Positions 12,101-15,066 of a DNA stretch of 48,402 bases are shown here, piece by piece. The notes beneath the pieces are model-generated. The model made no database searches. It saw nothing but the letters and a program-made list of their open reading frames with translations, and was not told the DNA's origin. Positions within the stretch are counted from its first letter, which is position 1. Each line of letters opens with the position of its first letter. Both the position numbers and the translations under genes were made by a program. Origin of the DNA: a bacterium (GTDB lineage: Bacteria > Chloroflexota > Chloroflexia > Chloroflexales > Kallotenuaceae); assembly GCA_016781505.1 (NCBI GenBank), contig JADDQF010000026.1, positions 1 through 48,402 of the forward strand. The letters are read 5' to 3'.

Positions 12101-12126
12101 TAACACGAAGAGCATGGAAGGAAGCA

Positions 12127-12675
12127 ATGAACGAACAGAGCAGCATTGTTGAGCCAGGCCAGCCCGCGCCTGATGTCACGCTCCGCAATGGAGACGACCA
12201 GCCGGTTGCATTGGCGTCGTTTTGGATCCAACGTCCAACGGCACTTGTGTTTGTGCGGCACTTTGGCTGACCGCATTGTCGTGAGCAGCTGGTGCAGTTG
12301 CGTGATAATTGGGAGCGTTTTGAGCAAGCGAAAATCGGCGTTGTGGCCATTGGTCAGGGCTCAGCCGTCCGAACGAAAGAGTTTCAAGCGCAGCTTGAAG
12401 TACCGTTTCCGCTGCTTGCCGATCCGCGCCGCATAGCCTACCGCGCTTATGGCTTAGCCAAGGCAAATCTGCTGCGGGAAGCGCGGGTCAGCAACCTGGT
12501 GCGGGGACTGCAGGCCGCGCGCTCCTTTGGCGTGGAATCCAGCAAAGACCAGGATATGCTGCAGCTCGGCGGTATCTTTGTGGTCGGCACAGACGGCATT
12601 GTACGCTATGCCCATCCGCAGCAGCGCATGAGCGATGTTCCGCCCAACGATGAGCTGCTAGCGGCTGTGCGTTAA
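12127..12675 (+). CDS. SelU/PRXL2-like peroxiredoxin, putative selenoprotein with in-frame TGA
   Basis: A 182-residue thioredoxin-fold protein of the AhpC/TSA-like PRXL2 family, expected to reduce peroxides or thiols. Reading from ATG 12127 (GGAAGGA upstream) the frame is open to 12675 except for one TGA at 12268-12270, codon 48. That codon is exactly the first cysteine of the family's CxxC: the surroundings read FVRHFG-TGA-PHCREQL, with Cys51 intact. Sequence before and after the TGA matches the family without a break, through the LADPRRIAYRAYG and QLGGIFVV segments. A SECIS-like hairpin follows at 12275-12309. Selenocysteine is therefore the best reading. The alternatives are a point mutation or a sequencing error; a downstream GTG at 12292 would give a protein without the active site. 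Confidence 0.8.
12275..12309 (+). promoter_or_regulatory. Candidate bacterial SECIS element
   Basis: Directly downstream of the TGA, ATTGTC (12275-12280) pairs with GATAAT (12304-12309) and GCAGCT (12285-12290) pairs with AGTTGC (12296-12301), each with one G-U. They are separated by a 4/2 internal loop and capped by the loop GGTGC. The loop starts 20 nt after the TGA and opens with GG followed by U. This meets the usual bacterial SECIS rules of a stem with a guanine at the start of the apical loop, 16-37 nt downstream. Confidence 0.7.
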
Positions 12676-14989: not shown

Positions 14990-15066
14990 GGCCCCATCGT
15001 CTAGCGGCCTAGGACGTCACCCTCTCAAGGTGAAGACCGCGGGTTCGAATCCCGCTGGGGTCACCA
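14990..15066 (+). tRNA. tRNA-Glu (anticodon CUC)
   Basis: A full cloverleaf is visible. The acceptor GGCCCCA pairs with TGGGGTC, the D arm contains GTCTAGCGGCCTAGGAC, the anticodon stem TCACC/GGTGA carries the loop CTCTCAA (anticodon CTC), and the T arm is GCGGG-TTCGAAT-CCCGC. The discriminator is A at 15063 and CCA is encoded at 15064-15066. It reads GAG codons. Confidence 0.95.

Follow-up and report, generated by a model that had tools for sequence, protein, structure and literature searches.

The UxxU diselenide motif is the hallmark of eukaryotic-type SelL, and the name SelU, when applied to bacteria, usually denotes the unrelated tRNA 2-selenouridine synthase. Selenocysteine (Sec)-containing proteins listed for bacteria include peroxiredoxin (Prx)-like proteins with UxxC or UxxU (PF00578), a cd02970 (PRX-like 2) protein with UxxS, and a Redoxin protein with UxxC (PMC13188914; PMC9312934). 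Sec-containing SelU is known from eukaryotes (PMC3473315), SelL with its UxxU motif is treated in PMC13188914 and PMC2398784, and three selenoprotein families had been counted in Chloroflexi by 2006 (PMC1794560). In the papers searched, we found no account of PRXL2/SelL-type selenoproteins with UxxC from Chloroflexota as a group of their own. The gene described here encodes a kind of selenoprotein already known from bacteria (Prx-like UxxC/UxxU and cd02970 UxxS), which is unusually widespread in Chloroflexota. We conclude with high confidence that it is a working selenoprotein gene, in which the UGA at 12268 to 12270 would be read as Sec to yield a PRXL2/SelL-type thioredoxin-fold enzyme.

The window, i.e., the whole stretch of 48,402 nucleotides analyzed, is contig 133 of a 4.18-Mb host genome that is 96% complete. 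The putative selenoprotein gene occupies positions 12127 to 12675 of the forward strand, running from an ATG at 12127 to a TAA at 12673 to 12675, with the TGA at 12268 to 12270 as its sole interruption, and is preceded by a purine-rich, Shine-Dalgarno-like stretch (GGAAGGAAG, 12116 to 12124, same strand). Translation with TGA as U gave a PRXL2/SelL-type AhpC/TSA (peroxiredoxin-like) protein of 182 residues with the site FVRHFG-U-PHCREQL, in which U48 is the first position of UxxC and the partner cysteine, residue 51 (U48-P-H-C51), is encoded at 12277 to 12279 on the forward strand. This agrees with a sequence-only reading of the window, which had placed one TGA at the first cysteine of a catalytic CxxC in an otherwise intact gene and had expected a standard gene caller to report a C-terminal fragment from 12292 and miss the active site. 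Under translation table 11, the only remaining in-frame open reading frame (ORF) of at least 90 amino acids was indeed that fragment (12292 to 12675, forward strand; 127 amino acids from a GTG start), which lacks the active site. Upstream neighbors on the opposite strand encode an ABC-type ATPase and an M1 peptidase, while a 254-amino-acid ORF of unknown kind (opposite strand) and a PPK2 gene lie downstream; no functional hint for 12127 to 12675 was found in this gene context. An Rfam scan of the whole window returned an ordinary tRNA gene at 14990 to 15063 (forward strand; RF00005, 63 bits) as its sole match.

The product matched the Pfam families AhpC-TSA (80 bits), AhpC-TSA_2 (61.1 bits against a gathering threshold of 27; residues 58 to 166), and Redoxin (54 bits), as well as the NCBIfam model NF040769, "SelL-related redox protein" (130.1 bits against a cut-off of 120; residues 12 to 180). 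Both NF040769 and AhpC-TSA matched all 34 homologues tested, and AhpC-TSA_2 matched 33 of them. AlphaFold2 modeling with Cys in place of Sec, based on five sequences, predicted a peroxiredoxin-like fold (mean pLDDT, 80; pTM, 0.76; residues 114 to 123 and 129 to 144 poorly modeled), with residue 48 directly before a helix spanning residues 49 to 60, and the nearest solved structures were AhpE and PrxQ-type peroxiredoxins. When the family profile was compared with solved structures, classical peroxiredoxins aligned over positions ∼2 to 104 only, whereas PRXL2B (9us9) aligned over positions 12 to 173, including the C-terminal D-x-LQ-x-GG. The SelU/PRXL2 label proposed in the sequence-only reading is therefore reasonable, given the AhpC-TSA_2 and PRXL2B matches, but not exclusive, as NCBIfam assigns the protein to the SelL-related redox proteins.

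With the SelL-related proteins of NF040769, the window protein shares a whole-protein score, and UxxU forms exist within its family (L117 to L119); however, it carries one Sec (UxxC) and thus not the UxxU of eukaryotic-type SelL, and the likeness is one of profile rather than of eukaryotic SelL sequences. With SelU/PRXL2 (PF13911, cd02970, including the prostamide/PGF synthase PRXL2B), it shares the PF13911 match and the alignment to PRXL2B over positions 12 to 173, and with Sec-containing eukaryotic SelU it shares the UxxC motif; it differs in that its gene is bacterial and holds a SECIS of the bacterial type within the reading frame, and in its weak pairwise similarity, PRXL2B being the only eukaryotic member compared. 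The bacterial cd02970 selenoprotein listed previously has UxxS rather than UxxC (PMC13188914). The bacterial Prx-like thiol:disulfide oxidoreductase selenoproteins (PF00578, UxxC/UxxU; WP_010940744.1, likened by description only) have the same Pfam family and Sec motif, but the window protein has matches to AhpC-TSA_2 and to the SelL-related model in addition. Sec-containing PrxQ/Bcp (TxxU), of which the host genome holds a copy (L086), has the same fold, but carries its Sec three residues later, at the peroxidatic position. Instead of the classical PrxQ/AhpE motif PxxxTxxC/U, the site here reads VRHFGUPHC, with U48 at the position of the PrxQ Thr.

The conservation of the TGA was examined in homologues drawn from order, class, and phylum surveys, mostly from metagenome-assembled genomes (MAGs), with the loci inspected singly. 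All three of the closest orthologues (L022, L023, and L024; 56 to 62% identity downstream of the TGA) had a TGA at the same codon. Where silent divergence could be calculated for these comparisons, it was at least ∼0.9, and one comparison was saturated, while dN was 0.28 to 0.52 on both sides of the TGA; such near-saturated silent sites combined with low dN indicate that purifying selection acts on the entire frame, also upstream of the TGA, and that the TGA itself has been retained. The close relatives, in which the sequence-only reading had suggested looking for other disabling mutations, keep the frame intact with the same TGA as its only interruption. Moreover, the TGA was at codon 48 in every TGA-bearing homologue of the same type examined (dozens, in Chloroflexota), and the Cys codons proposed to face it were found, the Cys-type homologues having TGC or TGT there; an in-frame TGA facing a Cys codon, with the frame kept on both sides, is the pattern of a bacterial selenoprotein gene. 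Position 48 (Sec or Cys) was invariant and position 51 nearly so among the 34 homologues, and a 58-sequence tree accommodated the Sec/Cys label with 5 changes, where shuffled labels needed 17 on average.

Several variants accompany this pattern. In L117, L118, and L119 (genomes G325, G234, and G417), a second TGA stands at the partner Cys, giving ULHU, ULHU, and UHYU, respectively; two of the three passed the NF040769 cut-off, and these sites may represent a diselenide motif like that of SelL. L057 (genome G089) reads UPYA, with the Sec retained and the partner Cys replaced by Ala. The host genome also encodes a Cys paralogue (L085, contig 68, 822 to 1376; CQFC), which groups apart, in one clade with further Cys forms from Chloroflexales. 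Two same-genus genomes, G026 (contig of 5,258,541 bases) and G029, encode a more distant AhpC/TSA-like protein with a TGA in RFFUPHC (L089 and L090, respectively); the family-type hairpin was not found after the TGA of either, so their SECIS, if any, would be of another form. In addition, TGA-containing Prx/ResA-like genes (L046, L083, and L087 in G004 and G002; L088 in G005) with RGWWUPHC, RGSWUPDC, RGWWUPQC, and AAGUPPC occur in the same family of genomes, where multiple Prx-like selenoprotein subfamilies seem to exist side by side. When genome contigs were scanned with a four-sequence profile, a first profile having been too diverse, only four loci were recovered, and two of these had been known before.

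The host genome encodes the machinery needed for Sec insertion. All four genes that the sequence-only reading had named as a check were present, with SelA (549 bits), SelB (311 bits), SelD (374 bits), and a tRNA-Sec scoring 68 bits, above its cut-off, whose anticodon was identified as tca (UCA) by ARAGORN. The SelD gene (L019, contig 118, 16916 to 17845) itself contains an in-frame TGA in SCAGUAAKMG, at the known Sec site of SelD, and is likely to encode a selenoprotein. A PrxQ gene close to a contig end (L086, contig 117, 64 to 372) has a TGA at the peroxidatic position in DDTPGUTLEA, the known TxxU motif, and likely represents a second selenoprotein of this genome. There are thus two sites of known Sec type in the genome besides 12268 to 12270. 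Across 400 Chloroflexota genomes, selA was present in 62 of the 63 with a listed TGA-form match, compared with 22 of the 32 whose matches were all uninterrupted (Fisher p = 5e-5, from a hand count of two tables and to be read as indicative, as the genomes are related). G325, the sole TGA-form genome without selA, is split into 1040 contigs and is 86% complete. In the set of the 60 nearest relatives, selC was not found in five TGA-bearing genomes (G001, G028, G033, G035, and G058), all of which have selA; the missing selC or selA in some TGA-bearing MAGs may be due to incompleteness.

Downstream of the TGA, folding revealed an apical hairpin at 12285 to 12301 of the forward strand (GCAGCTG(GTG)CAGTTGC), with a 7-bp stem and the loop GTG, or 6 bp and the loop GGTGC. 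In the minimum-energy fold (MFE) of the 42 to 60 nt from the TGA inclusive, it is extended by a lower stem (12275 to 12281 paired with 12303 to 12309) to a SECIS-like element at 12275 to 12309 (forward strand); the folding energy was −10.3 kcal/mol for the first 36 to 40 nt and −12.4 for 42 nt. The published bacterial SECIS model has an apical loop of 3 to 9 nt, an upper stem of 4 to 16 bp, a G within loop positions 1 to 2, 16 to 37 nt from the UGA, and an MFE of ≤ −7.5 (PMC13188914). The hairpin at 12285 to 12301 conforms to all four constraints of this model, and the fold bears out the two-part stem with apical loop GGTGC that had been matched to bacterial SECIS rules in the sequence-only reading. 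Taken alone, the hairpin of this gene was not significantly better than those of synonymous-codon shuffles (p = 0.10), and the claim of a SECIS therefore rests on a family-wide test, which took the best hairpin whose loop begins 17 to 32 nt from the first nucleotide of the TGA. This hairpin combined a stem of 6 bp or more with a GU-containing loop of 5 nt or fewer in 56 of 65 TGA genes, in 0 of 40 Cys genes, and in 5.1% of 13,000 sequences obtained from the TGA genes by synonymous-codon shuffling. The commonest form in the family, a 6- to 8-bp stem around AGTT, starts 28 nt from the first nucleotide of the TGA; in the clade of the window gene, the loop is shifted ∼4 nt toward the TGA relative to most homologues. 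In this four-sequence clade, covariation analysis of the apical hairpin, to which it was confined, found standard pairs in 27 of 28 pair cells and two pairs changed on both sides, a covariation not beyond that of column shuffles (126/500). MFE z-scores for the 45 nt after the TGA separated TGA genes (mean, −1.3) from Cys genes (mean, −0.35) moderately, the hairpin-specific test being much sharper.

It is extremely improbable that the TGA is a premature stop, whether in a pseudogene or created by an error of sequencing or assembly, so that nothing more than the C-terminal fragment from 12292 would be made. Standard translation does end at residue 47, and the C-terminal ORF has a GTG start, but the same TGA recurs, always at this codon, in genomes that were assembled independently and span several genera, families, and classes; on either side of it the frame is uninterrupted and subject to purifying selection, and among the stop codons only TGA, never TAA or TAG, occupies codon 48. 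Both pseudogene and sequencing error were rejected on this conservation and are excluded for practical purposes. That the UGA is instead read as cysteine, serine, tryptophan, or another residue, via a mischarged tRNA-Sec or a near-cognate tRNA, is very unlikely: the protein would function with Cys, as its homologues do, but the complete SelABCD set with a UCA tRNA-Sec, the GU-loop hairpin specific to TGA forms, and the association with selA across the phylum all argue for Sec.

Under the preferred reading as a selenoprotein, SelB and tRNA-Sec would deliver Sec at the UGA, directed by the hairpin just 3′ of it. Sec48, directly before the alpha helix, would act as the attacking nucleophile, with Cys51 as the resolving residue forming a selenenylsulfide, which may then be reduced by the thioredoxin system; the outcome would be thiol-disulfide exchange or (endo)peroxide reduction. 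The sequence itself shows the TGA and how it is conserved, the hairpin, the Sec genes, and the family assignment; that Sec is indeed incorporated in living cells is inferred, as are the catalytic cycle and the substrate. Fold and motif suggest thioredoxin-like UxxC chemistry, for which a disulfide, a peroxide, or an endoperoxide is a candidate substrate, and the enzyme most likely uses its selenol as a thioredoxin-fold oxidoreductase or peroxide reductase. A classical peroxidase cycle, in which Cys51 attacks the peroxide and Sec48 resolves, would still make this a selenoprotein and appears rather unlikely. In its favor, the TxxC motif of PrxQ-type homologues has its Thr opposite U48 and its peroxidatic Cys opposite C51, and the nearest solved folds point the same way; against this, residue 48 is the invariant one and 51 only nearly so, L057 keeps its Sec with no partner Cys, and classical peroxiredoxins match only the first ∼104 profile positions, compared with 12 to 173 for PRXL2B.

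The Sec48-centered PRXL2/SelL-type enzyme may belong to a wider picture, which we regard as speculative and doubtful at present: PRXL2/SelL-type selenoenzymes, in UxxC, UxxU, and Cys forms, would have radiated throughout Chloroflexota, largely misannotated and sharing a SECIS loop of lineage type (AGUU in most cases, with GU almost without exception), and this bacterial family would be the source of, or sister to, eukaryotic SelU and SelL. Standard gene calling reduces this gene, and dozens of related Chloroflexota genes, to truncated fragments without catalytic residues. The aligned UxxC, UxxU, and CxxC forms, together with a measurable SECIS signature, provide a natural data set on Sec/Cys interchange, as well as a bacterial comparison group for the eukaryotic SelU, SelL, and PRXL2 enzymes, the roles of which are poorly known.
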